This document shows, in pieces, positions 18,768-36,687 of a DNA stretch of 64,000 nucleotides. Both the position numbers and the translations under genes were made by a program. The DNA is from Methanofollis aquaemaris. GTDB taxonomy: Archaea > Halobacteriota > Methanomicrobia > Methanomicrobiales > Methanofollaceae. Position 1 is the stretch's first letter. Each line of letters begins with the position of its first letter. The DNA lies in assembly GCF_017357525.1 (NCBI RefSeq), contig NZ_CP036172.1, positions 1,276,561 through 1,340,560 of the forward strand. The letters run 5' to 3'. The notes beneath the pieces were generated by a model, which saw nothing but the letters and a program-made list of their open reading frames with translations, ran no database searches and was not told the origin of the DNA.

Positions 18768-19673
18768 ATGGAAAGCGTATTATTTGGCATTGGAGTAACA
18801 GCATTGGCAGGTGCCCTTGCTACAATTGCAGGCGCTGCTGAGGATACTGAGTCCAACATCGGGTCGCAGGGTGACCCGAACTCTCAGGTCCAACTGGCTC
18901 CACAGATGGGCTATATTCACCGGATTTACAACAAGGCTGTGTCCGGTGAGCCGCCCGCATATGGTCTGTGGGTCACCATCAGCGCAGGTGTAGCGTGGGC
19001 ATTCATGGCAACGGGGATGAACCCGGTGCTTGCCCTTGTTATCGCTTCTGCACTCGCAATCTTCGTGCAGGGTGTGTATGCAACGACTGCCTACCTCGGA
19101 AGGACGGCCAGTCTTGCGAAGTTTGAACAACCGGTATACATCGATGTCATCAAGTCGGTGACCACCGTGACGATGGCGCACGCCTTTGTCGCCGTGTTCC
19201 CGGCAGTCGTGATGTGTTACCTTCTCATCGCGGCACTCGGTCACCCGTTCCCGCTGCCTCTTCTGGGCATCGTCTGGGGTATCGCTCTTGGTGCCGCCGG
19301 TTCTGCGACCGGAAACCCGTTCTATGGTAAGGAACGTCAGTACCAGTCCCAGAAGTTCGGCGCTGGTGTGCCGATCTCCGCGTCCGGCAACATCGTCAGG
19401 TACGCGGAAGCAGGTCAGCGCAGCTCTCTCGACAACGGCTGGTTCACCGCAAAGCTCGCGGGTCCGGCATCAGGCATCTGTTTCGGCCTGATCGTGTTCC
19501 TCGAAATCTGGAGAACCGTGCTCTTTGAGGACGTTGCCTCAGGCTGGGGCGCTATCATCGCCGGTGTCGTGATCATCCTGATCTTCACGATCATCGACCG
19601 GTACGTCGAAGTCTGGGCACGGAAGAATTACGGTCCGTACCAGGCAGAAGCAACTGAGGAGGTGTCCGCGTGA
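18768..19673 (+). CDS. mtrE: Methyl-H4MPT:CoM methyltransferase subunit E
   Basis: MtrE is one of the large integral membrane subunits (MtrCDE) of the sodium-pumping methyltransferase. The 301-residue protein has six or more hydrophobic segments and the family start MESVLFGIGVTALAGALATIAGAAEDTE. The start at 18768 follows GGGAGGGAG; a 30-residue upstream extension in frame is leader. It is first of the mtr operon. Confidence 0.95.
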   Translation: MESVLFGIGVTALAGALATIAGAAEDTESNIGSQGDPNSQVQLAPQMGYIHRIYNKAVSGEPPAYGLWVTISAGVAWAFMATGMNPVLALVIASALAIFVQGVYATTAYLGRTASLAKFEQPVYIDVIKSVTTVTMAHAFVAVFPAVVMCYLLIAALGHPFPLPLLGIVWGIALGAAGSATGNPFYGKERQYQSQKFGAGVPISASGNIVRYAEAGQRSSLDNGWFTAKLAGPASGICFGLIVFLEIWRTVLFEDVASGWGAIIAGVVIILIFTIIDRYVEVWARKNYGPYQAEATEEVSA

Positions 19674-20512
19674 CCGCAATTGCAGCAGGCTCAGGCGGAG
19701 GCGAAGGGATCAACCCCGTCGCATCAGCCATTGGTATTGTTCTTATTCTCATCACGCTCGCAATTACCTACTTTGCCGTTCCAGCCGGCCTGGCGGCACT
19801 TGTCGGCGTCATTGTCGGTGGCCTTCTCATCGGCTTTGGTATTCACTTCGTGCCGGTCGGCGGTGCCCCGGCTGCCATGGGGCAAGCCCCAGGTATTGCG
19901 ACCGGTGTGGCAATGCTCGCCACCGGTGCCGGTCTCGCCGGCCTCTTCGGTGGGGCATGGGCCGCAGCCAACCCCGAGTTTAGTTTTGCGGTCGTCATCG
20001 CCGCCGGCGCTGTCGGTGGCGGTCTGATGATGGCGATCACCTGTCTGATGGTCAACATCATCTACATCTTCGGCATGGGTATCCCGGCCGCGTCCGGTAA
20101 GGTCGCAAAGGATCCGATCACCGGCGACACCCAGGAGGCATACAAGTCCCAGGGTACCGAGGGTCACGGTCTGCCGTTCATCTCCTATGTCGGAGGTGTC
20201 ATTGGTGGTCTCCTCGGCGGTGCCGGCGGTACGCTCATCTACTACGAGCTCCTCCAGGTCTATACCGCGACTCTCCCCGGCATGTTCGGTGCCGACGCCG
20301 CTGAAGTGCTGCCGATCGCAGTCTCGCTCGCCGGGATCTTTGCCGTCGGTATGTTCCTGGTGAACGCCGTGCTCGCCGCGTACAACATCACGGGTACCAT
20401 CGAAGGCCCCCACGACCCGAAGTTCAAGCGCTTCCCGCGTGCCATCATCGGGTGTGCAACCGCTTCGGCTGTCTGCGGGCTCTTTGCAATTCTGATTGTG
20501 ATGGGGGTGTGA
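19670..20512 (+). CDS. mtrD: Methyl-H4MPT:CoM methyltransferase subunit D
   Basis: This integral membrane subunit, 280 residues, is rich in Gly/Ala transmembrane helices (for example VGVIVGGLLIGFGIHF and GGVIGGLLGGAGGTL). It starts at a GTG that overlaps the mtrE stop (GTGA). It forms the ion-translocating part together with MtrC and MtrE. Confidence 0.94.
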   Translation: MTAIAAGSGGGEGINPVASAIGIVLILITLAITYFAVPAGLAALVGVIVGGLLIGFGIHFVPVGGAPAAMGQAPGIATGVAMLATGAGLAGLFGGAWAAANPEFSFAVVIAAGAVGGGLMMAITCLMVNIIYIFGMGIPAASGKVAKDPITGDTQEAYKSQGTEGHGLPFISYVGGVIGGLLGGAGGTLIYYELLQVYTATLPGMFGADAAEVLPIAVSLAGIFAVGMFLVNAVLAAYNITGTIEGPHDPKFKRFPRAIIGCATASAVCGLFAILIVMGV

Positions 20513-20516
20513 AAAG

Positions 20517-21383
20517 ATGACCGTACAAATTACTGCATCCGAAGGCGGCATCCCGCACAACACGATCATGGCAGTCGGCCTGGTCGGCTCTCTGGTCTGT
20601 CTGTACCTGACCTATGCCAACCAGTTCCTCAACGCCGAGTATGCCGCGTTCTTTGGCGGACTCGCCGCAGTGTTCGCCCTTCTCTGGGGAACTGACACCA
20701 TCAAGAACCTCTGCAGCTACGGTATCGGTACCGGTGTCCCGTCGGCAGGTATGATCGCCTTTGGTACCGGTGTCATTGCCATGCTGCTTGCAACCAAGGT
20801 CGAGACGATAGTCCCGTTCTCCGCCCCGATCGCCGCCGTCGTATTCGGCGCAATCGTCGGTGCGGTGGCAGGCTGGATCGCAAATGAGGTCATGCGGATG
20901 AACATCCCGGTCATGGTCCGCTCGCTCACCGAGATGGCCATCATCGGCGCTATCGTCCTCATGGGCTTCACTGCCGCCATGGCAGGCGGGTTCGGCTTCG
21001 ACGCCCTCGCTGCGCGGGAGATCGCAATCCTCGGACCTCTCACCACGACGTCCTATGTCGGCTCGCTCCTTGGCGGCTGTCTGCTTGCGGTCTCGTTCAT
21101 GCTCGGCAGCCTCGCCCTGCAGCACCCGTTCAACGCGTGCCTCGGACCTGGCGAACAGCAGGACAGAACCATGATGCTCGCTGCTGAGTGCGGGTTCCTC
21201 TCGATGATTGCCGTCGCTGCGATCTCGTTTGCGTTCATCGCCTTCCCGGCGGCTCTTCTCTCGCTGATCGTCGCTATCGTCGGGTGGTACTACACCTACG
21301 TCCGCTTCATCGAGCTCTCCAAGCGCGATGCCTTCGCGTGGCTCGACGCAAAGCCGATTCTTGAACCGAAGGGTGATGACTGA
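20517..21383 (+). CDS. mtrC: Methyl-H4MPT:CoM methyltransferase subunit C
   Basis: This integral membrane subunit, 288 residues, has about seven hydrophobic helices and the family-typical NACLGPGEQQDRT loop in the C-terminal half. Its stop overlaps the mtrB start (TGATG). It acts in the membrane sector of the Na+-translocating Mtr complex. Confidence 0.94.
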   Translation: MTVQITASEGGIPHNTIMAVGLVGSLVCLYLTYANQFLNAEYAAFFGGLAAVFALLWGTDTIKNLCSYGIGTGVPSAGMIAFGTGVIAMLLATKVETIVPFSAPIAAVVFGAIVGAVAGWIANEVMRMNIPVMVRSLTEMAIIGAIVLMGFTAAMAGGFGFDALAAREIAILGPLTTTSYVGSLLGGCLLAVSFMLGSLALQHPFNACLGPGEQQDRTMMLAAECGFLSMIAVAAISFAFIAFPAALLSLIVAIVGWYYTYVRFIELSKRDAFAWLDAKPILEPKGDD

Positions 21384-21667
21384 TGGGATACGTGCAGGTA
21401 CTGCCCGAATTCGGGCTGGTCGCTGACCCGATGGTCGGCGTTGTTACCACAGCAGGCGTCTCCTACCAGCCAGTGATCGATAAGGTCGAGTTACTTGAGA
21501 AGTACACCGACGACCTCGTTGGGATGCTTTCCGGAGAGGGCGCTTTCGTTGCTTCTTTCCCTGGCAGGGAGAAGTCACTGGCCATCGCCGGCAGTGTCAC
21601 CGCCCTGTGGTATGGTATCGCAGTCGGACTGCTCATCGCAGGGGTTATCGCCCTTGCACTGATGTGA
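21383..21667 (+). CDS. mtrB: Methyl-H4MPT:CoM methyltransferase subunit B
   Basis: This small subunit, 94 residues, has one C-terminal transmembrane helix (GIAVGLLIAGVIALALM) preceded by a cytoplasmic head with FVASFPGREKSLAIAG. The length and position between mtrC and mtrA are standard. Confidence 0.94.
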   Translation: MGYVQVLPEFGLVADPMVGVVTTAGVSYQPVIDKVELLEKYTDDLVGMLSGEGAFVASFPGREKSLAIAGSVTALWYGIAVGLLIAGVIALALM

Positions 21668-21678
21668 GGTGAAGAAAT

Positions 21679-22401
21679 ATGGCAGACAAGACATCACCGG
21701 CGAGTGGCTGGCCCCTGATCAAGGGCGACTTCCACTCTGGCGACGCAAATTCATGTGTCGCCGTCGTCACCATGGGCTCTCACCTCGACGAGCAGGGGAT
21801 CTGTGATGCAGGCGCCGCACTCTGCGGTTCATGCAAGACAGAGAACCTCGGCCTGGAGAAGGTCATTGCAAACGTCATTGCAAACCCGAACATCAGGTTT
21901 GTCCTCCTCTGTGGTACCGAAGTCAAGGGCCACCTCTCAGGCCAGACCCTCAGGGCGCTCCACGAGGGCGGTCTCGAGGGTGGCAAGGTCGTCGGCTCCA
22001 AGGGCGCTATCCCGTTCATCGAGAACCTCGATGACGCAGCGGTCAAGCGTTTCCAGGAGCAGACCGAAGTCGTCGACATCATGGAGTCCGAAGACCTCGG
22101 CGAGATCAAAGCAAAGATCTCCGAACTCGTCGGAAAGGATCCGGGCGCGTTCGACGCGGCCCCGATCGTTGTCGAGGTTAAGGAGGAAGAAGGCGGAGCA
22201 GGAGAGGAAGCCGGAGAGGCTGTAGAACTCAACGGGGACCTCGCACTTATTCACGCCAGGTTCAAGACCATCGAGAAGATGGTGACCGACATCGGATACC
22301 GGGACAGGTTCGCCGCCGGTGTCTACTCAGGCAAGATCGAAGGACTGATGATCGGCCTGATTGTGTCGTTCTCCATCCTCGGGCTTCTCCTGCTGGGGTG
22401 A
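21679..22401 (+). CDS. mtrA: Methyl-H4MPT:CoM methyltransferase subunit A (cobamide-binding)
   Basis: MtrA carries the corrinoid that accepts the methyl group from H4MPT. The 240-residue protein has the soluble cobamide domain, with His85 in the EVKGHLSGQ loop at the expected lower-ligand position, an acidic linker near residue 165, and a C-terminal helix ([19 protein letters not shown]) anchoring it in the membrane. Residues 1-130 are identical to those of the downstream fused protein at 22627. This copy keeps the canonical MtrA C-terminus and is the regular MtrA. Confidence 0.95.
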
Positions 22402-22407
22402 TTTGAG

Positions 22408-22614
22408 ATGGCGGAAGAAGACAAGAAGACAGGTGGCGCGATCAGGATGAATGCTATCGACAGCATCGTGGCAGACATCCAGTACAAGTCGCAGATTATC
22501 GCCAGGACAAACAAGATCGACTCAGGCATCATGGACTCCGGGATCCCCGGCTTTGCAGCCGGGCTGTTCATCTCGCTGCTCCTTATCGTGGTGCCTGTAG
22601 TGGTGCTGATGTGA
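22408..22614 (+). CDS. mtrF: Methyl-H4MPT:CoM methyltransferase subunit F
   Basis: This 68-residue subunit has a cytoplasmic head (AIDSIVADIQYKSQIIARTNK) and one C-terminal transmembrane helix (LFISLLLIVVPVVVLM). The length and place after mtrA are typical. A stand-alone mtrG would be expected next, but a fused gene takes its place. Confidence 0.92.
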   Translation: MAEEDKKTGGAIRMNAIDSIVADIQYKSQIIARTNKIDSGIMDSGIPGFAAGLFISLLLIVVPVVVLM

Positions 22615-22626
22615 GGTGGATAAAAC

Positions 22627-23358
22627 ATGGCAGACAAGACATCACCGGCGAGTGGCTGGCCCCTGATCAAGGGCGACTTCCACTCTGGCGACGCAAATTC
22701 ATGTGTCGCCGTCGTCACCATGGGCTCTCACCTCGACGAGCAGGGGATCTGTGATGCAGGCGCCGCACTCTGCGGTTCATGCAAGACAGAGAACCTCGGT
22801 CTGGAGAAGGTCATTGCAAACGTCATTGCAAACCCGAACATCAGGTTTGTCCTCCTCTGTGGTACCGAAGTCAAGGGCCACCTCTCAGGCCAGACCCTCA
22901 GGGCGCTCCACGAGGGCGGTCTCGAGGGCGGCAAGGTCGTCGGCTCCAAGGGCGCTATCCCGTTCATCGAGAACCTCGATGACGCAGCGGTCAAGCGTTT
23001 CCAGGAGCAGACCGAGATCGTCGACATCATGGAGTCCGAAGACCTCGGCGAGATCAAGGCAAAGATCTCTGAACTCGCCGGAAAGGATCCGGGCGCGTTC
23101 GGCGCGGCACCAATAATCGTCGAGGTCAAGGAAGCCGAAGGCGGCGCAGAAGGCGGAGCAGTCGCCGGCGCAAGCCCACAGTTCCTTGAGATCGAGCAGA
23201 GACTCGACGAGATCGAAACAAAAATTGAGTTCGTAAACGCCGAGGTCGCCCAGCGTGTCGGCCGCAAGGTCGGCAGGGACATCGGCATTCTCTACGGATT
23301 AGTGGCAGGACTGATCGTCTTCATGATGCTGATTTTCCTGCTCCCCAAGTTGATGTAA
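22627..23358 (+). CDS. MtrA cobamide domain fused to MtrG
   Basis: This 243-residue protein has two parts. Residues 1 to about 170 are a second MtrA cobamide domain, identical to MtrA over residues 1-130 and including His85. From about residue 185 the sequence changes to an MtrG-type end: [37 protein letters not shown] and a C-terminal helix ([15 protein letters not shown]). It occupies the mtrG position between mtrF and mtrH, and no separate mtrG exists nearby. It probably supplies MtrG and adds an extra cobamide carrier to the complex; the second role is inference. Confidence 0.88.
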
Positions 23359-23374
23359 AGGAGGCAAGATCAGA

Positions 23375-24397
23375 ATGTTCAAATTCGAGAAGGAACAGGC
23401 CGTTTTCGACTTTAACGGCATCAAGATCGGCGGTCAGCCGGGCGAGTACCCACGGGTGCTCGGCGCGTCCATCTTCTACAACAAACACGAGACGGTACTT
23501 GACGACCACACGGGAAAGATCGACAAGGCAAAGGCCGAGGCGCTCTGGAACCGTTGTCAGGAACTCTACGACCAGACGGGCAACCCGTACTTCATCCAGA
23601 TCATCGCTGAGTACGGTGAGGCCTTCGAGAGTTACTTCGACTGGTTCTGCTCCATCGACGACAAGACTCCGTTCCTGATGGACTCCTCCGCACCGGAAGC
23701 CCTTGTCCACGCATGTGAGTACGTCACCGAGGTCGGCATCGCAGACCGTGCGATCTACAACTCGATCAACGGCTCCATCGTCCCCGAGAACATCGAGGCC
23801 CTGAAGAAGTCCGATGTCAACTCCGCAATCGTCCTCGCCTTCAACCCCGGCGACCCGTCGGTCGTAGGGCGTGAGAAGGTGCTGACAGAGGGCGGTGTCG
23901 CCGGTCAGGCACAGTCCATGATCGGGATCGCCGAGGAATGCGGCATCACCCGCCCGATCCTCGACACAGCGGCCACCCCGCTCGGTATGGGTTCCGGCGG
24001 TTCGTTCCGTGAGATCCTCGCCTGCAAGGCGATCCACGGTCTGCCGACCGGTGGTGCATACCACAACATGACCGTCTCCTGGACCTGGCTGAAGCGCTGG
24101 AGAAAGAGGGTTCTTGCCGAGCAGTATGAGGGTAACGACGTCCTTCTTGAGCAGATGTCCCACCACCACTTCGGCGGGATGGATGGTATCAGACAGACCG
24201 CATGGGCTGCACCTGATATCGGCTGCAACATCATGGCCATGACCCTCGGTGCCGACCTGATCATGTTCGGGCCTATCGAGAACTGCGAGGGTATCGCCAC
24301 CGCGGCCGCCTTCTCAGATATCGTCCTCACCGAGGCTCTCAAGGAACTCGGCGGCGATCTCCAGGCCGAGAAGCACCCGATCACGCTTCTCGTCTAA
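23375..24397 (+). CDS. mtrH: Methyl-H4MPT:CoM methyltransferase subunit H
   Basis: MtrH transfers the methyl group from methyl-H4MPT to the MtrA-bound cob(I)amide; it is a soluble TIM-barrel subunit. The 340-residue length and the MFKFEKEQAVFDFNGIKIGGQPGEYP start are diagnostic. Further matches are FNPGDPSVVGRE and DTAATPLGMGSGGSFRE. It is the last gene of the operon, 16 bases after the fused mtrA-mtrG gene. Confidence 0.96.
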   Translation: MFKFEKEQAVFDFNGIKIGGQPGEYPRVLGASIFYNKHETVLDDHTGKIDKAKAEALWNRCQELYDQTGNPYFIQIIAEYGEAFESYFDWFCSIDDKTPFLMDSSAPEALVHACEYVTEVGIADRAIYNSINGSIVPENIEALKKSDVNSAIVLAFNPGDPSVVGREKVLTEGGVAGQAQSMIGIAEECGITRPILDTAATPLGMGSGGSFREILACKAIHGLPTGGAYHNMTVSWTWLKRWRKRVLAEQYEGNDVLLEQMSHHHFGGMDGIRQTAWAAPDIGCNIMAMTLGADLIMFGPIENCEGIATAAAFSDIVLTEALKELGGDLQAEKHPITLLV

Positions 24398-24885: not shown

Positions 24886-25629
24886 TCACGCCCTCTTCTT
24901 CTTCCCCTGCAAATAATCAAGACTCGGCCGCACGGCACGGGGGTCCAGCACCTCGACGACGGCTGTCGCCGACGAGGGGACGGCTGCCATGACGGCTGAA
25001 AAGTCAATGGACCCGCTGCCGCAGGCGGCATGGAGGTCATTGACCCCGTCGTTGTCATGAAGATGAAGATGGACCGGCCGCCCCTCAGTAAGGAAGGTCT
25101 CAAGGGTACCGGTGAGCGCGGCGTGCCCGACATCGAGGACAAACCCAAGGCCCAGGTCGTCGAGGACCGGGAGGAGAGCGGGGTCTCTGAAGTGACAGCA
25201 GGTCCATGAGCCCATGTTCTCGACCGCAAGGACAACCGAGACCTCGTCCTGGAGGGCGGCGAGGTCGTGGAGGGATCGGAAGAGGGCCTGCTCCGAGGCC
25301 TGCCAGAGGAAGGGTTCCATGCAGAATCCAGGATGGACAACAAGACGGCAGGCCCCGACCTCGTCACAGATCCGGGCAAGATCGGCGATCACCTCGACCG
25401 AGGCGTGCCGCATGCTTTCGTTCGCTGCGGCGAGGTTGATGTCGGTGGTCGGGGCGTGGACGGTGTAAGCGAGGTCGAAGGAGTCGCAGACCTCCTGATG
25501 AACGAAAAGAGTGTGGAGGGAATCGGAGAGCACCTCCACAAGATTGGTTTCGGCGGCGAGGAGCGCGAGGGCCTCGTCGAGGGGGCGGTCCATGAGGCAG
25601 TAGGTGGAGCAGCCCGGGAACCCCATCAT
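24886..25629 (-). CDS. Sugar phosphate isomerase/epimerase-like TIM-barrel protein
   Basis: This 247-residue protein matches the xylose-isomerase-like / AP endonuclease 2 TIM-barrel superfamily. Metal-ligand candidates are the VVHPG His, the AVENMG Glu, the LDVGHA Asp and His, and the HLHDNDG His and Asp, spaced as in this fold. Its start overlaps the stop of the upstream ABC ATPase gene (ATGA), so it is translationally coupled as third gene of the BtuC-BtuD-like operon. The substrate is unknown; the operon suggests a role linked to the imported compound. Confidence 0.75.
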   Translation of the reverse strand: MMGFPGCSTYCLMDRPLDEALALLAAETNLVEVLSDSLHTLFVHQEVCDSFDLAYTVHAPTTDINLAAANESMRHASVEVIADLARICDEVGACRLVVHPGFCMEPFLWQASEQALFRSLHDLAALQDEVSVVLAVENMGSWTCCHFRDPALLPVLDDLGLGFVLDVGHAALTGTLETFLTEGRPVHLHLHDNDGVNDLHAACGSGSIDFSAVMAAVPSSATAVVEVLDPRAVRPSLDYLQGKKKRA

Positions 25630-26897
25630 ACTGTCCCGTTCCTGAGGGCGGCGAGGTGCGCGACGAGGGACGGAATGTCCCTGACAGTGACGGCACCCCC
25701 CCTACAGAGGGACGAGAAGAGCGCGGTCGCATCGCCGCCGGTGTAGTCGCGGCTCGAAAGCGGGGTGCCGTCCCGTGCCAGCACAAATATTCTGAGGCCA
25801 GGAGATTGCTCCAGTGCCCTGAGGTTTGCGATGTTGCCGGGGCCGACCGGCATCTCGGTGATGACCACGGCGTCGGCTCTCTCAAGAAGCGCGACATATT
25901 CTGCAAGCGAGCGCTCGGAGACCGGGGCAAAGGGGGACTCCCTGACAACCGGGATCCCGAGCCCTTCGGCAGTGGTGCAGTCCGAATCATTGGCCGAGAG
26001 GACGCCGGCGGTGACCTGGTATCCCTGTGAAGAAAGGGCGTACATCGTCTCGGCCCCCGTCCCGCCGCCGCAGACGACATGGACGCGCAACGGCGTTCCG
26101 GTGGAGACTGCCGGGGCCGGTTCATAGCGCGGGACCAGGTACGGTCTGCCGGTGAGCGGGTGGATCCTGACCATCATCGGAACGTCAAAGACCTGCCTGA
26201 TGTGTGCATCGGTGAGCACCTCCGCCGGCGTGCCGACGGCGACGATCTTTGCCTTCTCCATGAGGATCAGCCGGTCGCAGAAGTAGGCGGCGAGGTTGAG
26301 ATCATGGAAGACCGCGATCACGGTCACCCCCGGAGTGAGGCTGCGGATGATCGACAGGATCTCAATCTGGTGGTTGATGTCCAGGTGGGAGGTCGGTTCG
26401 TCGAGGAGGAGAGCCTTCGGCTGCTGGGCGAGGGCGCGGGCGATGAGCACCCGCTGCCGTTCGCCCCCGCTGATCTCGGTGATGAGTCGGTCGGCGAGAT
26501 GGGCGGTGCTGGTCAGGTCCATCGCCTCCCGGCAGATCGCATAATCCGCCTCTTTCATCGAGGAGAGACGCCCGAGGTAGGGGTGGCGACCCATCTGCAC
26601 GATCTCCTCGACCGTGAACCCGAAGGAGACTGCAGTCTCCTGGGGGACGGCGCCAAGTCTGGTGGCCAGTTCGCGGGGAGAATATTCCCCGACATCTCTG
26701 CCGTCGACATAGACCGCTCCGGCCGCCGGGTTGATGACGCTCGATACCGCGCGGATGAGGGTGGTCTTCCCGCACCCGTTCGGCCCCAGGATCCCGATGA
26801 ACGTGCCCTCGTTCACGGCAAGTGAGACCGCGTCCAGGACCTGGACGTCGCCATACCTGACGTCGAGATCCTCTGCCCTGATCATCTCTGCTGTCAT
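25626..26897 (-). CDS. btuD: ABC transporter ATPase, BtuD/FecE type, with extra C-terminal domain
   Basis: This 423-residue protein has Walker A GPNGCGKTT (residues 38-46), the Q-loop at VPQET, signature SGGERQR (143-149) and Walker B LLLDEP (163-168) with the H-loop in VFHDLN. Residues about 270-423 are an additional Rossmann-like domain (RVHVVCGGGTGAETMYAL...ADAVVITEMPVG) of unknown role, absent from bacterial BtuD. The start at 26897 overlaps the permease stop. It energises import of a corrinoid (or a siderophore); neighbours favour corrinoid. Confidence 0.85.
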   Translation of the reverse strand: MTAEMIRAEDLDVRYGDVQVLDAVSLAVNEGTFIGILGPNGCGKTTLIRAVSSVINPAAGAVYVDGRDVGEYSPRELATRLGAVPQETAVSFGFTVEEIVQMGRHPYLGRLSSMKEADYAICREAMDLTSTAHLADRLITEISGGERQRVLIARALAQQPKALLLDEPTSHLDINHQIEILSIIRSLTPGVTVIAVFHDLNLAAYFCDRLILMEKAKIVAVGTPAEVLTDAHIRQVFDVPMMVRIHPLTGRPYLVPRYEPAPAVSTGTPLRVHVVCGGGTGAETMYALSSQGYQVTAGVLSANDSDCTTAEGLGIPVVRESPFAPVSERSLAEYVALLERADAVVITEMPVGPGNIANLRALEQSPGLRIFVLARDGTPLSSRDYTGGDATALFSSLCRGGAVTVRDIPSLVAHLAALRNGTV

Positions 26898-27841
26898 GTC
26901 CGTGTCCTGCTCCGTAAGAGGTAGATGAAGAATGGTGCGCCGAAGAACGCCGTGACGATCCCGACCGGGATTTCGTTGGGCATGGTGCGGGCGAGGGTGT
27001 CGGCCCACATCAAGATGACCGCCCCGGCCATCATGGCCGAGGGGAGGAGGATCCGGTGGTCGGGACCGACAACGATACGCATCACATGCGGGGTGATGAG
27101 CCCGATGAACCCGATGGCCCCGGCGACCGAGACGGCGATCCCGGTGATGAAAGAGGAGAGAAGGAGAAGAGCGAGTTTGAGTTTTTCGACGTCCACCCCC
27201 AGGTGCAGGGCGTCCTCCTCGCCGAGGGAGATGACGTTGAGGTCTCTGGCAAAGAAGAAGAGCATGAAACAACCGACAAGGATGAGAAGGGCGACCCTGA
27301 CATCGTCCCACCAGACATTCCAGAGGCCGCCCATCAGCCAGAACATGATCTGGTGAAGGCTTTTGCCTGAGATGTACATCACAAAGGAGAGGAGAGAGGA
27401 GAGGAAGAGTGAGACCGCGATCCCCGAGAGAAGGAGGGTCTCGACGGCCACCCGACCGTCACGTCGGGAAATAAGGTAGACGACGACGGTCGAGGCGGTG
27501 GCGCCGATAAAGGCGAAGATCGGCAGGCCCCATCCCATAAGAAAAACAATAGAAAGGGCCGCACCGAGGGCGCCGCCGGACGACGTGCCGATGATGTAGG
27601 GGTCTGCCATCGAGTTCTTGAAAAGTCCCTGCATCGCGGTTCCGGCGGCCGCCAGTCCCGCGCCGACGAGGAGGGCGGCGAGCACCCGGGGGAGACGGAC
27701 ATCAAAGAGGATCTGCATGATCCCCGCGGGGCCGAGGTCGAGGAGAGAGAGACCGCTGGTCCCTATTGCGGTGGTGAGGATGACGCTTGCACCCAGGAAG
27801 AGAAAGAGGGCGACCAGCACGATCCAGGTCTTCTTCTGCAT
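26894..27841 (-). CDS. btuC: ABC transporter permease, BtuC/FecCD type
   Basis: This 315-residue FecCD-family permease has about ten transmembrane helices. The family motifs DVRLPRVLAALLVGAGLAAAG and the C-terminal GFIGLITPHVMR followed by PNEIPVGIVTAFFGAPFF are clear. It is first gene of the minus-strand operon btuC-btuD-TIM-barrel. A candidate minus-strand TATA box, ACTTTATTTTCC, lies at about 27874-27886. Family members carry cobalamin, heme or ferric siderophores. Confidence 0.9.
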   Translation of the reverse strand: MQKKTWIVLVALFLFLGASVILTTAIGTSGLSLLDLGPAGIMQILFDVRLPRVLAALLVGAGLAAAGTAMQGLFKNSMADPYIIGTSSGGALGAALSIVFLMGWGLPIFAFIGATASTVVVYLISRRDGRVAVETLLLSGIAVSLFLSSLLSFVMYISGKSLHQIMFWLMGGLWNVWWDDVRVALLILVGCFMLFFFARDLNVISLGEEDALHLGVDVEKLKLALLLLSSFITGIAVSVAGAIGFIGLITPHVMRIVVGPDHRILLPSAMMAGAVILMWADTLARTMPNEIPVGIVTAFFGAPFFIYLLRSRTRT

Positions 27842-28313
27842 GGTATTCTACATAAATGAATCTTACCCTAAGGAAAATAAAGTTACCCAAATGATCGGTT
27901 CCAGGCAGACTCCGGGGGGTGCGCCCGGTTCATAGACGACCGGGAATGCGTGGGGATTCCGGAGAGAAAAAAAGACCAAGAGCGCATGAAGTCCTCAGGT
28001 CTCATATTCGACACTTGACAACCCCGGTTCTGTCTCTAGTTCCCGGATCCTCTTGAGGTCCGCCTCCTTCAGCATCGAATAGTTCGTCCTGACGTACGCA
28101 AGGAGCGTCACTCCCATCTCCTTCTCAATATTCTTCACTTTTTCCACCTATTCGGGAGATCTGCTTGCATATCCCATAGAGATCATGGCACTCACCGTAG
28201 AGATAGCAGATATATTGAGAGATACTCTCGGGCACGCATCGAAAAAAATATTTACATAACTCCACATTATTTTATTAACGATCCATAATGAACACCTCTG
28301 TGGAGATAGAACT
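27842..28313. other. Divergent control region between btuC and the exported-protein genes
   Basis: The stretch holds divergent AT-rich promoters (minus-strand box near 27874-27886; plus-strand boxes ATATTTACATA near 28247 and TTATTTTATTAA near 28267) and one possible small gene at 27995-28147. No cobalamin-riboswitch-like structure was recognised. Confidence 0.45.
27995..28147 (-). CDS. Possible small protein or gene fragment
   Basis: A minus-strand frame of 50 codons starts at GTG 28147 and ends TGA at 27995. The product is charged and protein-like (EKVKNIEKEMGVTLLAYV, then NYSMLKEADLKRIRELE). An in-frame TAG immediately precedes the GTG and no ribosome binding site is visible, so it could be the surviving C-terminal piece of an older gene. 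An internal ATG 30 bases in is a second possible start. Confidence 0.3.
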   Translation of the reverse strand: MEKVKNIEKEMGVTLLAYVRTNYSMLKEADLKRIRELETEPGLSSVEYET

Positions 28314-30218
28314 ATGAAACACCATTCTTGTGCAGGGATGATATGCATCCTTCTGATCCTTCTTATCGCGCCTGCCACGGCCGACTACCTGATGTTTGGC
28401 GCGGACGAGGCGCGGACCGGGGCCATATCCTCCGGTGGCCCCCTGACCAATGCCACCCTCTGGGTGGCGGAGACCGCCGAGTACGCCGAGGGTTCTCCGG
28501 CGGTCCATGACGGCAAGGTCTTTGTCCCGACCTGGCCTGACATGAACTTCACCGACAACGAACCAATGGGACTGGTCTGCTATGACGCCGGCACCGGTGC
28601 AGAACTCTGGACCAACGAACTTGGTGGTGCTGCCGTCGGGGCAGTCTCGGGGGCGGCCGTCGCGGACGGGCATGTCTATCTCGGGGGGACTGACGGGAAA
28701 CTCTATTGTGTCGACGAAGAGACCGGGGCCACACTCTGGTCGAGCGACACGATCGACGAGACCGGATACTTCGGTCTTTCCTCGTCTCCGCTGATCTTCA
28801 ATGGCAAGGTCTACACCCTCTCGGCCTCAGACAGCGTGCTCCATGAGTTCAGCCCGGACGGCGACGAGACCTGGTCGTTTGCGATCGGCGGCGGAGCGGC
28901 ATATTTTGTTTCACCTGCAGCGGCCGGCAGCAAGATCTACTGCTCGAACATGACCGCACTCTCCTGTATCGACCCTGCAACACAGAAAGAGGTCTGGAAC
29001 ACCACGCTTCAGGATGTCATTCTCTCGACACCGACCGTGAACGAGAACACCCTCTTCTGTGCCGCCGCCATCAAGACCCATGCCTTCGACCGCGAGACCG
29101 GAGACGAACTCTGGAATGTATCCATCGCCGGCACCTCGTCTTCCCCTGCACTCAACGGCGACAGTCTCTATGTCGGCGCAAATGACGGCCTCCATTGCCT
29201 GGACACCATCACCGGTGCGGAGCGCTGGACCTTCCCCTCTGCGAAGATCACGGTCTCCCCGGTGGTAGCAGACGAGACCGTCTATTTCGCGACAAATGAA
29301 GAGGCAGGATCTGTGTATGCGGTGAACGCCACCAGTGGTGTTGAGGTCTGGTCTTACACCCTTGAAGCACCAGGCGACGGCAATTTTGCCGCGTTCTATG
29401 CCTCTTCACCTGCAATCTCCGACGGCGTCCTGTACATCGGGGCAGAGGACAACCACTTCTATGCCTTCGGCGAAGGGGTACCCGGACCGGAGACCATCTT
29501 CGACGGCACCGTCAGCCTCACAGACACCACCTTCACCTTCGTGCCGTCGAACAATGTCACCGGATCCTACCAGGTCAACCGCACCACCGACCTCGGCGCG
29601 CTCGACGCCGCCGCCGACCTCGGGGGATTCACGTTCAACGCAAGCGATGCATGGTACGGTTCATACGGTTCCTTCAGCCTCGAATCAATCAACGGCATCG
29701 CCAACGAGGACTGGACACAACCAGCCGCACGCTCCTGGTCCATCTTCATCAACAACCAATCGGCAACCAGAGGCCTGGGCGGGAACACCCTCAAAGACGG
29801 TGACCTCCTCGCGTTCTTCTACTGCCCGGTCAACCAGACGACCTATGCCCCGCTCATCGAGGAGGCCGACGCTGTTGTCAGGTGCAGGGTGAGCATGACG
29901 GACGCCACGCTCTCGGCACTGAAACTCACCGGCGGCAGTCGTGGCGGGAGTGTCCGTGCCGATGTCACGGTCTCCGCCGTGAACGGAGGCGGCTATGTCG
30001 TCGTGGTGAGCGGAACGGACGGGAACGGTGAGACTCTCGCAGGGGCCGGCACCGTCCACCTCGCCGCCGGCCAGAGTGCCGGGATCCCGGTCATCGTCAC
30101 CATACCTCTCCAGGCCAGGACCGGCGCCTACACCCTCCATGCAGGCATCTATCACATCGAAGACTATCCACAGCACTGTCTCTTCACGAGCGAGGGTATC
30201 GAATGCACGGTAACATGA
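28314..30218 (+). CDS. Exported PQQ-repeat beta-propeller protein with DUF4430 (transcobalamin beta-like) domain
   Basis: This 634-residue protein starts with a signal peptide (MKHHSCAGMICILLILLIAPATA). Residues about 30-390 are PQQ-like propeller blades with recurring G-x-x-Y/L-x-C/A-x-D-x-x-T-G-x-x-x-W (DAGTGAELWTNE, DEETGATLWSSD, DRETGDELWN, DTITGAERWTF). Residues about 395-510 match the DUF4430 pattern (LGALDAAADLGGFTFNASD, SWSIFINNQSA, GDLLAFFYCP), the fold of the C-terminal domain of transcobalamin. A beta-sandwich-like tail follows, with no anchor. It is divergent from btuCD; corrinoid binding at the surface is inferred. Confidence 0.8.
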   Translation: MKHHSCAGMICILLILLIAPATADYLMFGADEARTGAISSGGPLTNATLWVAETAEYAEGSPAVHDGKVFVPTWPDMNFTDNEPMGLVCYDAGTGAELWTNELGGAAVGAVSGAAVADGHVYLGGTDGKLYCVDEETGATLWSSDTIDETGYFGLSSSPLIFNGKVYTLSASDSVLHEFSPDGDETWSFAIGGGAAYFVSPAAAGSKIYCSNMTALSCIDPATQKEVWNTTLQDVILSTPTVNENTLFCAAAIKTHAFDRETGDELWNVSIAGTSSSPALNGDSLYVGANDGLHCLDTITGAERWTFPSAKITVSPVVADETVYFATNEEAGSVYAVNATSGVEVWSYTLEAPGDGNFAAFYASSPAISDGVLYIGAEDNHFYAFGEGVPGPETIFDGTVSLTDTTFTFVPSNNVTGSYQVNRTTDLGALDAAADLGGFTFNASDAWYGSYGSFSLESINGIANEDWTQPAARSWSIFINNQSATRGLGGNTLKDGDLLAFFYCPVNQTTYAPLIEEADAVVRCRVSMTDATLSALKLTGGSRGGSVRADVTVSAVNGGGYVVVVSGTDGNGETLAGAGTVHLAAGQSAGIPVIVTIPLQARTGAYTLHAGIYHIEDYPQHCLFTSEGIECTVT

Positions 30219-31783
30219 CGTGGGCCTTTCCCCTTCTCCTCCTCATGCTTGCAGCACCGGTGGCGGCACTCAGCATGGACGTCGCCGGATCGTCCCCCGG
30301 TTCGGCCGTCACGGTCGCCCTTGACAGCGAGGCCGACGTAATCTTTCAGGTGAACGGGGGAACCCCATACTACGCGCACGGGACGACGGTGAAGTTCGTC
30401 CCGCACATCACCGGCACGCTCTCCGTCACCGCCATGGCAGAGGGGCAGACCATCCAGAAAACAGTCCGGATCACCTCGGGAAGTAGTGGAGACGGGGGGA
30501 GCGACGATGACGACTCAGGTCTCTGGAAGAAAGTTGTCCTCGGCCCTGAAACCTTCAATGTGACCGCAGAGAGCGGTGAGACGTACGAAGTGAAGCGACG
30601 CACCGCCCTCGGTGCCCTTGACGCCTCGGACGCCACGTACGTCCTCAACGACGAGTGGTACGATCAGTATGGCACGCTGTACCTCAAGTCCATCAACGGC
30701 CGCGCGGGTGAGGGTCTGGCCGGGTGGGTCTACCAGGTGAACGAAAAGTCGCCGTCGGTCGGCGCCAATACCTATAGTGTGAAGAAAGACGACAGGGTCG
30801 TCTTCTACTACAGCGAGAGCATGTCGGCACAGCCCGAGGACTCGGTCGAAGCGATCTATCTGAAGGTCGCCTTCGGCACCAGCACCTCAAACGGGGACGA
30901 TGGAGAGGAGTCGAAGATGATGCGAGGGAGTCTGAAACCGGCCGATAGTTCTGAGATCAATCTCGGTCTCCCCGAGGGCGTGACCATGACCTTTGGTGCA
31001 GGTGGAGCGCGGATCTCGGTCCTCCAGGGGGCTGGCGGCGGCGACGAGGAGGTGATCGTCAGGGGTGACCGAGTCATCATCATGCGTCCCGGCCTCCTGC
31101 TGACCGTCCTGACCGGTGATCTGAAAATGGAGGACAACTCCTCGACCGGACAGGTAAGGAGCGTCACCGCCGAACTGATGCCCAACACTGAAGGCCTTGG
31201 CGGCCTGAGTGGTGCGGGAGGAAGGATCATCCTCACTCTTGCCGGAATACCCGGCGACGGATCCATCACCACCGGGTTCAGCGACCGACCGTCCTCAGAG
31301 ATGACAGAATCCCTCGAAGGCCTTGCCGCCACAGAGGGCCGGTCCCTCCTGGGCGTCGCCTATGTGATGGAGATCAACAAAACCAACCTCAAGAACGGCG
31401 AAGACATTCTTGGCACCGTGATCAGGATGGAGGTCGACCCGGCCTGGGTGAAGGAGCACGGCGGCACCGGCGCGATCCGGATCGTTCACATCGCCGACGA
31501 CGGAACGATCGAGTTCCTTGAGACCAGAAAGATTCTGGAGACTGAAGACTCCGTCACCTTCGAGGCGGAGTCAAAGAACGGTCTCTCGTCATTTGTCCTC
31601 GGCGCCATCGGAGGGGGAAAGAGAGCCGCGACGCCTGTGATGACAGCACCCGCAACAGGGAGTGAGGCGGGCACCACACCGGCACCGACCGCTCCGCAGC
31701 AGACACCCCTCTGGGCCTGGGCCACCATTCCGGCGCTCTTTATTGGGGGCGCCGCATATCTCATGAACAGGAAGGAGGAATAG
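30203..31783 (+). CDS. Membrane-anchored surface protein with DUF4430 domain
   Basis: This 526-residue protein has a signal peptide (FPLLLLMLAAPVAALS), a short beta domain, then a DUF4430 domain at about residues 115-215 (RTALGALDASDATYVLNDEWY, GWVYQVNEKSPSVGANTY, KKDDRVVFYYSE). A long beta-rich region follows, then a Pro/Thr linker (TPAPTAPQQTP) and a C-terminal transmembrane helix with NRKEE. The start overlaps the previous gene by 16 bases and has GAGGG 6 bases upstream. It probably sits on the outer face of the membrane as a corrinoid-capture partner; the ligand is inferred. Confidence 0.78.
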   Translation: MHGNMTWAFPLLLLMLAAPVAALSMDVAGSSPGSAVTVALDSEADVIFQVNGGTPYYAHGTTVKFVPHITGTLSVTAMAEGQTIQKTVRITSGSSGDGGSDDDDSGLWKKVVLGPETFNVTAESGETYEVKRRTALGALDASDATYVLNDEWYDQYGTLYLKSINGRAGEGLAGWVYQVNEKSPSVGANTYSVKKDDRVVFYYSESMSAQPEDSVEAIYLKVAFGTSTSNGDDGEESKMMRGSLKPADSSEINLGLPEGVTMTFGAGGARISVLQGAGGGDEEVIVRGDRVIIMRPGLLLTVLTGDLKMEDNSSTGQVRSVTAELMPNTEGLGGLSGAGGRIILTLAGIPGDGSITTGFSDRPSSEMTESLEGLAATEGRSLLGVAYVMEINKTNLKNGEDILGTVIRMEVDPAWVKEHGGTGAIRIVHIADDGTIEFLETRKILETEDSVTFEAESKNGLSSFVLGAIGGGKRAATPVMTAPATGSEAGTTPAPTAPQQTPLWAWATIPALFIGGAAYLMNRKEE

Positions 31784-31785
31784 AA

Positions 31786-33762
31786 CTGAAGAAACTCTGC
31801 GCACTCGTCATCCTCATCTGCACCGCCTGCATCATGAGCGGTGCGGCCTACCCGCTCGATGCGGAGGACGACACCATACAACACAGTCTAGAATATCTCA
31901 AGACCTGTCAGCAGCCTGACGGAGGTTTTGCCGAACCAGGACGAGAGACCAACCCCGGCACCTCGTGGTTTACGATGATGGCGATCGTCGCCGCAGGTCA
32001 GGATCCCCACACCTGGACCGTGAACGGCACCTCAGCGGTCGACTACTGGGCACACCCCGGTGAGGACCTCAAGACCGAGGGGACCGCCGAACTCGGCCGG
32101 ATGGTAACCCTCATCACCGCCGTCGGCGGTGACCCGCACGACTTCGGTGGAGAAGATTATCTTGCCGACCTGAAGGCGCGGATGAAACCTACGGGCCAGT
32201 TCGGCGACTTTGTCTACACCTCGTACTGGGGGATCTTCGGGCTCGCCGCCGCGGGCGAGGATACCGCAAAGCCCCTCGCCTGGCTGAAAGAACAGCAGAA
32301 CGAAGACGGCGGGTTTGGCTGGATGCCGGGCGCCGAGAGCGACTGCGACGATACCGCCGCCTCCCTTATGGCGATGATCGCCGCCGGAGAACCGAGAGAC
32401 TCTCCACCGGTGAAGAAGGCACTTGGGTATCTGAAGAACGCCCAGATGGACGACGGTGGGTTCAACTATGGTGGCTCTTCCTCCTCGAACGCGGCGTCGG
32501 CCGCATGGGCGGTGCAGGCGATCGCCGCAGCAGGTCAGAACCCCTCGACCTGGGTGAAGGACAATAAAAATGTCGTCACATACCTCACCTACCTCCAGCA
32601 ATCCGACGGTTCTTTCAAGTGGACGGCCCAGGTCACCGACAACCCCTGCCGGATGACGGCCGCCGCAATCCAGGCACTCCTCGGTCGGCCGTACCCCATC
32701 CTGCCCGGTCAGTCCGCTCCCGCACTCTCGGGACAGACCGCAGAGGCGGAGAATACTCCTGCCGCCGCGACTCCGGTCGTCGCCGCCACGAGCGCACCGG
32801 CCACCGGCGGCCCCTGGGAACCGGTCACCGTCACCGACGACTTCGGTGAAAAAGTCACCATCACGAAGGAACCCCTGCGGATCGTCTCCCTTTCCCCGGC
32901 CAACACCGAGATCCTCTTTGCCCTCGACCTGGGCGACCGGGTGGTCGGGGTGACCGACTTCTGCAACTATCCTGAGGAGGCCACCGAGAAGCCGAAGGTC
33001 GGCGGGTTCTCCACGGTGAACATCGAGCGAGTCGTAGCGGCAAAGCCCGACCTGATCTTTGCAGCCCTGGGCAACACCGAAGAGGTGGTCGACCACCTCA
33101 GGAAACTCGGCCTGACCGTCGTCAGCCTCAACCCCGACTCGGTGCAGGGGACGCTCAAGGATATCAAACTCGTCGGCAAGGCCACCGGGAAGGAGGCAGA
33201 AGCCGAGACGCTCGTCACCTCAATGCAGACGCGGATCGATGCCGTTGAAACAAAGGTGGCAGGCGCAACCGAACGTCCGACCGTGATGCATGCTGTCTGG
33301 TACGACCCCATCTGGGTGAGCGGCAACGGCACCTTTCAGGACGAACTGATCGAGATCGCCGGCGGAGAGAATGCCTTCCCCGATGTTGAGGGATGGCAGA
33401 TCATCACCCTCGAAAAGGTACTCACCAATGATCCGGAGGTGATCCTGGTCAATTCAGGCACCGGGATGGGCGGCGCGGAGAACGACCTTATCTATCGGTA
33501 CTTCGCCGAGGAGCCGCGGTTCCAGAAACTTCAAGCAGTGAAAGAAGACCGCCTCTCCATTGTGCCCTCCGACATCATCGACCGCGGCGGCCCCAGGATC
33601 GTGGATGCCATCGAAGCGGTGGCGGCGGACATTCATCCGGAACTCTTCGGGACAGAGGAGGAGACATCGGCCCCGTCCGGCGCACAGAGTCCGGGCTTCG
33701 GGCTTCTTCCGGCGATAGCCGGACTGCTGGGTGCATGTCTCCTCCTCAGGAGGGCTCGATGA
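31786..33762 (+). CDS. Alpha/alpha-toroid (prenyltransferase-like) repeat domain fused to a BtuF-type binding protein
   Basis: The product is 658 residues from CTG 31786, or 642 from ATG 31834. The CTG frame gives a perfect signal peptide (KKLCALVILICTACIMSGAAYP) with AAGGAGG 7 bases upstream, while the ATG would cut it off. Residues about 30-300 hold terpene-cyclase/prenyltransferase repeats (QQPDGGF, QQNEDGGFGW, QMDDGGFNYGG, QQSDGSFKW). After a Pro/Ala linker, residues about 350-620 form a BtuF-like domain (PLRIVSLSPANTEILFALDLGDRVVGVT in part, AKPDLIF). The C-terminus (PGFGLLPAIAGLLGACLLLRR) resembles a PGF-type sorting tail. It is the likely binding protein for BtuCD. Confidence 0.82.
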   Translation: MKKLCALVILICTACIMSGAAYPLDAEDDTIQHSLEYLKTCQQPDGGFAEPGRETNPGTSWFTMMAIVAAGQDPHTWTVNGTSAVDYWAHPGEDLKTEGTAELGRMVTLITAVGGDPHDFGGEDYLADLKARMKPTGQFGDFVYTSYWGIFGLAAAGEDTAKPLAWLKEQQNEDGGFGWMPGAESDCDDTAASLMAMIAAGEPRDSPPVKKALGYLKNAQMDDGGFNYGGSSSSNAASAAWAVQAIAAAGQNPSTWVKDNKNVVTYLTYLQQSDGSFKWTAQVTDNPCRMTAAAIQALLGRPYPILPGQSAPALSGQTAEAENTPAAATPVVAATSAPATGGPWEPVTVTDDFGEKVTITKEPLRIVSLSPANTEILFALDLGDRVVGVTDFCNYPEEATEKPKVGGFSTVNIERVVAAKPDLIFAALGNTEEVVDHLRKLGLTVVSLNPDSVQGTLKDIKLVGKATGKEAEAETLVTSMQTRIDAVETKVAGATERPTVMHAVWYDPIWVSGNGTFQDELIEIAGGENAFPDVEGWQIITLEKVLTNDPEVILVNSGTGMGGAENDLIYRYFAEEPRFQKLQAVKEDRLSIVPSDIIDRGGPRIVDAIEAVAADIHPELFGTEEETSAPSGAQSPGFGLLPAIAGLLGACLLLRRAR

Positions 33763-34826
33763 GAGTCACCCTGTCCATCCTCTTCCTGCTCCTCCTCTCG
33801 GCACTCCCGACTCTTGCGGCCGCGGCTGCACCCGGAGAGATCCCGCTCTGCGAGGTGACCGTCCCCGGAGAGATAAAAGAGATTGCACTGAACACCGACG
33901 GCACCGGGATGGCCGTCCTCTCGGATCAGACGCTTTCATGGCACAACAGCGACGAGACACCAGGCTGGGAAGTCCCGGCAAACAATGCAGAAACCATCGG
34001 AGTCTCTGAAGACGGTTCGCTCCTTGTCTCAGGCGGCGCCGACCTCAGAACCTACGACCGTGACGGTGGTCGGGCCTTCAGGTTCGACACGGGATACTTC
34101 GCCCTCGGGACCGCCGTGTCCCCGGAAGGTTCCTGCATCGCCGCCGGGTTCGACAACAAGAGTCTGACCGTATTCAGGGCCGACACACAGGATGGGTTTG
34201 AACCGGTCTGGACGGCCGGGACCACGGAAGACGTCATCAGTATGGCGCTCGCCGACAACGGGTCACATCTTGCGGCCTGCACGAGAGACGGGATGGTCAA
34301 CTCCTATACCGGAGACGGGAGATTGCTGTGGCGCTACGACACCGGGAGCGAGAGACTCACCTGTGCCGTCACCGGCGACGGTTCGTATGTCGTCGTCGGC
34401 GCCGACCACGGCGTCGTCCTTCTCTTGAACAGGAACGGGATCCTCATCAGAGAAGAGGTTGTCGGGGAACGTCTCCCCGCGGTCTCGATCTCGGCCGACG
34501 GATCGGTCGTCGCCATCGGCGGGGACGACGGGGTCGTGCTCCGCTCTCTCCAGGGCGACGACCTCGGCACGATCGGGAATGGGAGCGTGCAGGCGGTTGC
34601 GCTCTCGGCCGACGGGAGTCGAGTCGCCGCCGGACAGGGGGAGCACCTTGCCCTCTTCTCGACAGGCACCGATGAGATCATGCCGGTGACCGCGGCCGCA
34701 GCCTCGACCACCGCAGGGACCGACACCACCGGGGGAGAACCTGTCCCGGCCCGGACCCAGCAGGCCGGGCTTTCTGTTCTGCCCGCCCTTGCGGCCGTCG
34801 CCCTCCTTCTGGGGGGAAGGCGTTAA
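33759..34826 (+). CDS. Exported beta-propeller (WD/PQQ-like) protein with C-terminal anchor
   Basis: This 355-residue protein has a signal peptide (MRVTLSILFLLLLSALPTLAAAA) and about seven propeller-like repeats with the recurring pattern I/V-S-x-D-G-S-x-V/L-x-x-G-G/A (SEDGSLLVSGGAD, SPEGSCIAAGFD, TGDGSYVVVGAD, SADGSVVAIGGDD, SADGSRVAAGQG). After a Thr/Ala/Gly-rich stretch it ends in a hydrophobic tail and GGRR. The ATG overlaps the stop of the BtuF-fusion gene (ATGA) and has AGGAGG upstream, so it is translationally coupled. Its function is unknown; it could be a scaffold of the surface uptake system. Confidence 0.72.
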   Translation: MRVTLSILFLLLLSALPTLAAAAAPGEIPLCEVTVPGEIKEIALNTDGTGMAVLSDQTLSWHNSDETPGWEVPANNAETIGVSEDGSLLVSGGADLRTYDRDGGRAFRFDTGYFALGTAVSPEGSCIAAGFDNKSLTVFRADTQDGFEPVWTAGTTEDVISMALADNGSHLAACTRDGMVNSYTGDGRLLWRYDTGSERLTCAVTGDGSYVVVGADHGVVLLLNRNGILIREEVVGERLPAVSISADGSVVAIGGDDGVVLRSLQGDDLGTIGNGSVQAVALSADGSRVAAGQGEHLALFSTGTDEIMPVTAAAASTTAGTDTTGGEPVPARTQQAGLSVLPALAAVALLLGGRR

Positions 34827-36123: not shown

Positions 36124-36687
36124 ATGGACTTAGCCACCATTATTGTACTCGCAGTCGTAGTGCTGATCATCCTCGCCCTCGTCGGCTGGATCATCAGCAT
36201 CTACAACCGTTTCATGAACCTGAAAAACTCTGGCGAGGCGACCCTCGGCCAGATCCGCGTTGCCATGAAGAAGCGGCTCGACCAGATCGAGCAACTTCTC
36301 GGGGCCGTCAAGAGTTACGCCTCCTTCGAGAAGGAGACCCTCACCAAGGTCACCGAGATGCGGGCCGGCGTCGGCAAGGCCGATCCCGGCGACCTCAACG
36401 AGGTGGAGCGGCAGTCGCGCTCGATCGTCGGCCGCCTCTTCGCAGTCGCAGAGGCCTATCCCGACCTCAAGACGCAGGCAACGGTCTCCGAACTGATGGC
36501 ATCCATCAGGCAGATCGAGGACGAGATCGCCCGCCAGCGCTACACCTACAACAACATCGCCCAGCAGCTCAACACCATGACCGAGACGATCCCCTCCAAC
36601 ATCGTCGCCTCCATGGCCCACATCCAGAGACTCGATTATCTCGAGTTCGAGGAGAAGATCGAGCAGGCGCCGAAGATCGAGTTCTGA
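36124..36687 (+). CDS. LemA family protein
   Basis: This 187-residue protein has one N-terminal membrane helix (IIVLAVVVLIILALVGWIISIYN) followed by the LemA helical bundle (QIRVAMKKRLDQIEQLLGAVK, NNIAQQLNTMTETIPSNIVA, the FEEKIEQAPKIEF end). LemA proteins are membrane-associated and often pair with a DUF2207 protein, as here: the next gene starts 10 bases downstream. The role in the cell is not well defined. Confidence 0.92.
   Translation: MDLATIIVLAVVVLIILALVGWIISIYNRFMNLKNSGEATLGQIRVAMKKRLDQIEQLLGAVKSYASFEKETLTKVTEMRAGVGKADPGDLNEVERQSRSIVGRLFAVAEAYPDLKTQATVSELMASIRQIEDEIARQRYTYNNIAQQLNTMTETIPSNIVASMAHIQRLDYLEFEEKIEQAPKIEF

Follow-up and report, generated by a model that had tools for sequence, protein, structure and literature searches.

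Prokaryotic relatives of the animal B12-binding proteins were recognized when Burroughs et al. (2007) defined the SLBB superfamily, in which SLBB domains are fused to alpha/alpha-toroids in either order, paralogues share an operon, and further fusions with propeller and Ig domains occur, with examples from Archaeoglobus and Methanospirillum (PMC1796856). The toroid and the SLBB domain sandwich B12 in transcobalamin, and B12 scavenging was proposed for the prokaryotic SLBB proteins, a distinct metabolite being deemed possible in archaea that have a B12 pathway (PMC1796856). TCN proteins contain the domain DUF4430 (PMC4350170). In Bacteroides, the propeller BtuG captures B12 at the cell surface (PMC6143338), and CbiR, for which the 2020 description named homologues from a single archaeal taxon, cleaves cobamides to cobinamide phosphate and alpha-ribazole (PMC7733943). 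Here we analyse a seven-gene cluster of the archaeon Methanofollis aquaemaris, located at positions 24886-34826 of a 64,000-nucleotide stretch of contig NZ_CP036172.1 (1,276,561 to 1,340,560, forward strand; hereafter the window), in which DUF4430, toroid and BtuF modules are combined with a BtuCD-type importer and a CbiR-like gene. With a probability of roughly 0.78, we consider this cluster to be a system for corrinoid capture, import and remodelling; that it serves corrinoid uptake is highly likely. No description of the toroid-BtuF fusion, of the CbiR/CbiZ linkage or of this cluster was found in the open-licence literature on DUF4430 and cobalamin, archaeal transcobalamin and methanogen corrinoid uptake.

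A cluster of importer and exported proteins

24886..25629, minus strand: CbiR-like AP-endonuclease-2-type TIM barrel, 247 amino acids, candidate cobamide-remodelling phosphodiesterase (PF01261 and NCBIfam match)
25626..26897, minus strand: BtuD ATP-binding cassette (ABC) ATPase with C-terminal extension, 423 amino acids (ABC_tran 110 bits, PRK09536)
26894..27841, minus strand: BtuC-type FecCD permease, 315 amino acids (FecCD 302 bits, PRK09535)
27995..28186, minus strand: remnant of a short gene whose conserved relatives encode about 63 amino acids (relatives in 11 other loci)
28314..30218, plus strand: P4, signal peptide, PQQ/BamB-type beta-propeller and DUF4430 (PQQ_2, PF14478)
29676..29813, plus strand: DUF4430 domain of P4, residues 455-500 (PF14478)
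30203..31783, plus strand: P5, signal peptide, N-terminal beta domain, DUF4430 and C-terminal membrane anchor (PF14478, hydrophobic C-terminus)
30620..30814, plus strand: DUF4430 domain of P5, residues 140-204 (PF14478; 21-sequence alignment)
31786..33762, plus strand: P6, CTG start, signal peptide, alpha/alpha-toroid fused to BtuF, PGF-CTERM-like anchor (hidden Markov model (HMM) matches, AlphaFold2 model)
31873..32715, plus strand: toroid domain of P6 (Prenyltrans/SQHop_cyclase_C; model helices 5-274)
32881..33570, plus strand: BtuF/Peripla_BP_2 domain of P6 (143.6 bits; BtuF structure match)
33735..34826, plus strand: P7, signal peptide, second beta-propeller (WD40/BamB-like) and C-terminal hydrophobic anchor (alternative start 33759)
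19670..24397, plus strand: mtrD, mtrC, mtrB, two mtrA copies and mtrH, adjacent to and convergent with the cluster

The likeness to intrinsic factor, transcobalamin and haptocorrin lies in the pairing of an alpha/alpha-toroid with DUF4430, the SLBB domain of the transcobalamin C-terminus, in exported proteins. In the animal proteins both modules are on one chain with the toroid first, whereas in the window they are on separate chains (toroid on P6, DUF4430 on P4 and P5) and in Archaeoglobi on one chain in the reverse order; moreover, animal intrinsic factor couples to an endocytic receptor, whereas the archaeal modules couple to an ABC importer through BtuF. The intrinsic-factor parallel drawn in the first-pass annotation of this DNA therefore holds for the presence of both modules, but these lie on different proteins, and the link between DUF4430 and the toroid and the idea of B12 scavenging were already known from 2007 (PMC1796856). 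Like the transcobalamin-like SLBB clade, the window proteins are exported DUF4430 proteins with toroid or propeller partners, often two paralogues per operon; the operons reported in 2007 contained CbiO/CbiQ-type genes, whereas the window has BtuCD, the toroid-BtuF fusion and the CbiR-like gene (CbiZ in relatives). Presumed corrinoid capture at the surface and an exported beta-propeller gene beside Btu importers recall the Bacteroides BtuB/BtuG system. BtuG, however, is seven-bladed, described as exclusive to Bacteroidetes and works with the outer-membrane protein BtuB (PMC6143338), whereas P4, set apart from it here by description, is a PQQ/BamB-type propeller with DUF4430 and has no outer membrane to work with. 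As in Akkermansia (PMC7733943), the gene of an AP-endonuclease-2 enzyme with conserved His, Asp and Glu residues lies beside corrinoid transport genes, although the archaeal CbiR-like proteins score well under the curated CbiR cut-off. The permease, ATPase and binding-protein set resembles BtuCDF and has its best matches to B12 models; it differs from BtuCDF in that the binding protein is toroid-fused and membrane-anchored and the ATPase carries a C-terminal extension.

The seven tightly spaced genes form two divergent blocks, btuC, btuD and the CbiR-like gene on the minus strand and P4 to P7 on the plus strand, with 4-nucleotide overlaps between btuC and btuD and between btuD and the CbiR-like gene, while neighbours in the plus-strand block overlap or lie 2 nucleotides apart. 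The BtuC/BtuD-type importer and four exported proteins of the first-pass annotation were all found at their coordinates; it had missed or blurred the CbiR-like first gene and the second propeller encoded by the seventh. A FecCD permease, an ABC ATPase and a Peripla_BP_2 protein are united within the one cluster, as in BtuCDF, and the top NCBIfam model of each is a B12 or corrinoid one: BtuC (PRK09535, 338 bits), the corrinoid ABC ATPase (PRK09536, 372 bits over residues 5-355) and, once a general PGF-CTERM substrate-binding-protein model is set aside, BtuF (120 bits versus 72 for the heme binder IsdE).

All four proteins P4 to P7 start with an N-terminal hydrophobic, signal-like segment, as judged from their sequences. 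The annotated pair of DUF4430 proteins was recovered by PF14478 (cut-off 23.8 bits), which matches P5 with 50.6 bits and P4 with 22.0 bits in the protein scan and, above the cut-off, 25.2 bits when the genome was scanned; the whole 2.75 Mb genome has no match besides P4 and P5. P4 has in addition a PQQ_2 match of 137 bits and a C-terminus without obvious anchor, and P5 ends in a hydrophobic segment. P6, whose CTG start is preceded by a GGAGGA stretch, is the annotated toroid-BtuF fusion, with Prenyltrans and SQHop matches of 54.6 and 48.6 bits, the Peripla_BP_2 match of 143.6 bits and a near-threshold PGF-CTERM match. Elsewhere in the same genome we observed another toroid gene (G000:C1:1860467-1860871, in a frame of 1277 amino acids) and, near a FecCD permease, a protein in which the BtuF-type domain occurs twice in tandem (G000:C1:1951900-1957031, in a frame of 765 amino acids).

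The AlphaFold2 model of P6 (predicted local distance difference test score 86.9, predicted template modelling score 0.83) shows a toroid of 12 helices joined to a domain with the BtuF fold, the latter with Z 26.7 to Vibrio BtuF (5ysc) and 26.4 to E. coli BtuF (1n2z). The Foldseek/VIA lists for this model were filled by BtuF-type chains, and the toroid was judged via its homologue in the Archaeoglobi fusion, which superimposes on intrinsic factor (3kq4 and 2pmv) with Z 21.7 and 21.3 and a root-mean-square deviation of 3.0-3.1 over 240-245 residues. The likeness to intrinsic factor that had been predicted was thus borne out for the archaeal family, at Z of about 21.5, although terpene cyclases score higher. 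The P5 DUF4430 profile gave no significant match against all PDB sequences, so that the transcobalamin link rests on Pfam PF14478 and on PMC1796856.

Conservation, rearrangement and neighbourhood

DUF4430 was found in 49 of the 120 Methanomicrobiales genomes searched, and a toroid gene in 32 of the 40 DUF4430 regions examined. The 28 toroid-bearing loci of at least 15 kb, on which the counts of cluster content are based, all contain DUF4430, BtuF and a P4-type propeller, a co-occurrence for which the first-pass annotation had suggested a neighbourhood survey across the order; BtuC and BtuD are present in 27, a P7-type propeller in 22 and the CbiR-like gene in 18. Seven weak DUF4430 loci (L064, L065, L067-L071) are all without toroid, BtuF and BtuCD. 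The cluster spans several families, and the domain order of P6 is retained while its identity to relatives drops to 47%. Since the two DUF4430 genes are unique in the genome and the cluster is kept across families, the association is more than chance, and we regard the domains and the conservation of the cluster as near certain.

Another Methanofollis locus (L103) lacks the capture genes; there, mtrH is followed by CbiR-like, btuD and btuC genes (70-80% identical to those of the window), and a plain, divergent btuF shares 67% identity with the BtuF portion of P6. This arrangement implies that the toroid-BtuF protein stands in the place of BtuF and that the core can do without P4, P5 and P7, which are optional. 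A LemA-like gene follows the L103 btuF; its counterpart in the window lies further downstream, at 36124. The toroid-BtuF genes of gut Methanocorpusculum are preceded by a 160-amino-acid exported protein (L095:8933-9418, L096:4488-4973, L097:2108-2596), which may represent one DUF4430 domain that has diverged strongly (a single weak match, E 0.04).

A P6-profile scan of named genomes yielded 323 relatives, of which the best 79 loci were examined; these were selected by P6, hence their BtuF content is not independent, whereas their DUF4430 content is. They belong to Methanomicrobiales, Archaeoglobi, Methanosarcinales, Methanophagales and a few other archaeal metagenome-assembled genomes. DUF4430 and the toroid form one polypeptide in 15 of these 79 loci, all from Archaeoglobi, where DUF4430 precedes the toroid, a P4-like protein comes before the fusion and a separate BtuF follows. 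In one of them (L119), residues 20-248 resemble P5 of the window (38% identity) and residues 395-681 the P6 toroid (50%), and a CbiZ gene (PF01955, 152 bits) separates btuD from the P4-like gene. The modules occur as separate genes in Methanosarcinales and Methanophagales, and two loci (L122, L126) encode P4-like, P5-like, toroid and BtuF proteins in four consecutive genes followed by btuC, L122 with CbiB and ThiC upstream. When DUF4430, toroid and BtuF are joined in such alternative ways, this is a classical indication of parts that work jointly. Very large toroid proteins with PQQ-type propellers were also seen upstream of BtuF in Methanophagales/Methanomicrobia (L128:200-6757, L129:1869-8741, L142:246-8243).

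Bacteria provide an independent pointer to corrinoids: the nearest plasmid-borne toroid gene, from Streptomyces sp. SAT1, starts 180 bases past a cobalamin riboswitch (RF00174, 41.8 bits) and belongs to an operon that adjoins metE and contains genes for the T, A and S components of an energy-coupling factor (ECF) transporter. The riboswitch lies at L157:3931-4063 and the gene, for a 911-amino-acid protein of the SCO2321 type, at L157:4243-6978. By eye, the toroid N-terminus and the next, 313-amino-acid protein share the motif YWSYW...W.YS, which may be a diverged DUF4430 domain; the HMM gave no match. In Latilactobacillus a DUF4430 gene precedes an ECF transporter. In Collinsella aerofaciens, two consecutive genes encode DUF4430 proteins, the first of which has four such domains and matches a propeller weakly (L159:2549-6343), and no transporter gene adjoins this pair.

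The genes for Mtr, which is cobamide-dependent, occupy the plus strand up to 24397, and the operon thus converges on the cluster; the annotated divergent arrangement of the island is correct, but the mtr operon is not co-directional with it. The adjacency of mtrH is retained in the Methanofollis loci and in some Methanoculleus. The window's mtrA is present in two tandem copies (21679-23358), and a tandem mtrA pair is described for Methanomicrobiales (PMC4632066). The divergent region 27842-28313, annotated as a single control region, also contains the small gene remnant, with one in-frame stop after 12 codons in the window copy; the gene is intact in most of the 11 other loci. In Methanomicrobiales it accompanies btuCDF loci (e.g. 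L032, L034, L038, L043, L086, L106, L111, L112) and matched neither Pfam nor NCBIfam. No perfect inverted repeat of at least 8 bp was found in the divergent region, and a scan of the window matched no Rfam family and thus no known riboswitch. In a close relative, the divergent region contains an additional stand-alone DUF4430 gene (L034:6574-7089).

Ligand, capture modules and the CbiR-like gene

Several results weigh against a corrinoid role. None of the importer parts, nor the CbiR-like protein, attains the curated NCBIfam cut-off of its own B12 model (BtuC 461, BtuF 234, CbiR 105), while the ATPase surpasses that of a generic heme-importer model; the BtuF domain of P6 fits heme and siderophore/iron binders about equally well by fold; the Archaeoglobi toroid matches terpene cyclases somewhat better (Z up to 26) than intrinsic factor; the Streptomyces toroid is just about 28-30% identical to P6; and CbiC occurs in 32 of 36 island-bearing genomes, so that external B12 should be unneeded. 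Taken together with the use of FecCD and Peripla_BP_2 families for heme and siderophores and with the distinct metabolite suggested for archaea (PMC1796856), the importer findings might mean that another metal-tetrapyrrole or chelate (heme, a cobalt or nickel chelate, a siderophore) is bound by the toroid and DUF4430 and taken up. Since the fold cannot decide between B12, heme and iron binders, the corrinoid assignment rests on context. Four lines of context favour the scavenging role proposed in the first pass, which we infer from them: the toroid is fused to BtuF, BtuCD genes are neighbours, CbiR-like or CbiZ genes lie within the clusters, and the mtr operon adjoins. The choice of B12 or corrinoid models by all three importer parts, the CbiR-like and CbiZ genes and the riboswitch ahead of the Streptomyces toroid gene make another ligand, in our view, highly improbable.

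Even if the core handles corrinoids, the toroid, DUF4430 and propellers could be an adhesion or scaffold device that anchors or spaces BtuF on the S-layer and never touches the ligand. Toroids and beta domains are known from thioester/complement-type proteins, one of which is the first Foldseek match of the Archaeoglobi fusion; propellers and Ig-like domains often serve as scaffolds, and L103-like loci have the core without the capture modules. DUF4430 and the toroid are, however, exactly the pair that sandwiches B12 in transcobalamin (PMC1796856), co-occur in every complete locus of the order and are fused in Archaeoglobi. We think the scaffold explanation unlikely, though not far-fetched, and consider direct contact of toroid and DUF4430 with the corrinoid probable. 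A comparable doubt concerns the CbiR-like gene, which might code for a DNA repair enzyme of the endonuclease IV type or a sugar epimerase and lie there by chance. Its PF01261 score is 78 bits, and its best NCBIfam model, CbiR (NF041277), reaches 65.5 bits against a curated cut-off of 105 that no Methanomicrobiales genome passes, for which reason it is named CbiR-like only; its candidate metal-site residues (H58, H99, E137, D166, H169, H191, D198, H200, E226), invariant in 14 sequences, are common to the whole superfamily. On the other hand, deoxyribonuclease IV follows with just 40 bits, the gene is the top CbiR match in its genome (another homologue scores 45), and it adjoins btuCD/btuF in 18 cluster loci and also in loci without the capture module. 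A corrinoid-unrelated function thus appears rather unlikely to us, and on these sequence comparisons the first gene somewhat more plausibly has CbiR activity than not. Plasmids, screened for a bacterial CbiR reference, yielded none.

Proposed route and reason for scavenging

In the corrinoid reading, the exported DUF4430 proteins P4 and P5 and the anchored toroid of P6 would jointly form an intrinsic-factor-like binding surface split over several chains, with sandwich-type binding in trans, in which the propellers may have a role as well. From this surface complex the ligand would pass to the BtuF domain that shares a chain with the P6 toroid, and this domain would dock on BtuCD for import. 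Inside the cell, the CbiR-like enzyme may cut the nucleotide loop of foreign cobamides, and the corrin could then be fitted with the lower ligand native to the organism, to serve cobamide enzymes such as Mtr, the products of the neighbouring mtr genes being the likely consumer.

Auxotrophy as the reason for scavenging was rejected. CbiC, a marker of the de novo corrin pathway, is present in the genome of the window and in 93 of the 98 good genomes of the order, which argues against auxotrophy and would fit capture and remodelling of foreign cobamides; CbiZ is found in 95 of the 98. One genome with the capture cluster (G021, reported 98% complete) has no CbiC match and is a possible corrinoid auxotroph.

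The BtuF fusion and the CbiR/CbiZ linkage bear on the question left open in 2007, why B12-making archaea keep transcobalamin-like surface proteins, and the linkage of BtuCDF to CbiR-like or CbiZ genes suggests scavenging and remodelling of foreign cobamides. We tentatively propose, at somewhat less than even odds, that these archaea have a multi-protein surface analogue of intrinsic factor, which would catch the cobamides of other microbes and pass them through the toroid-fused BtuF to CbiR-like or CbiZ remodelling, so that the one-chain animal protein would correspond to several distinct subunits in methanogens, both the fused and the split state persisting in archaea. If true, this would have a bearing on methanogenesis, on the exchange of cobamides within digesters, guts and sediments, and on the way in which a toroid and DUF4430 became combined in the animal B12-uptake proteins.

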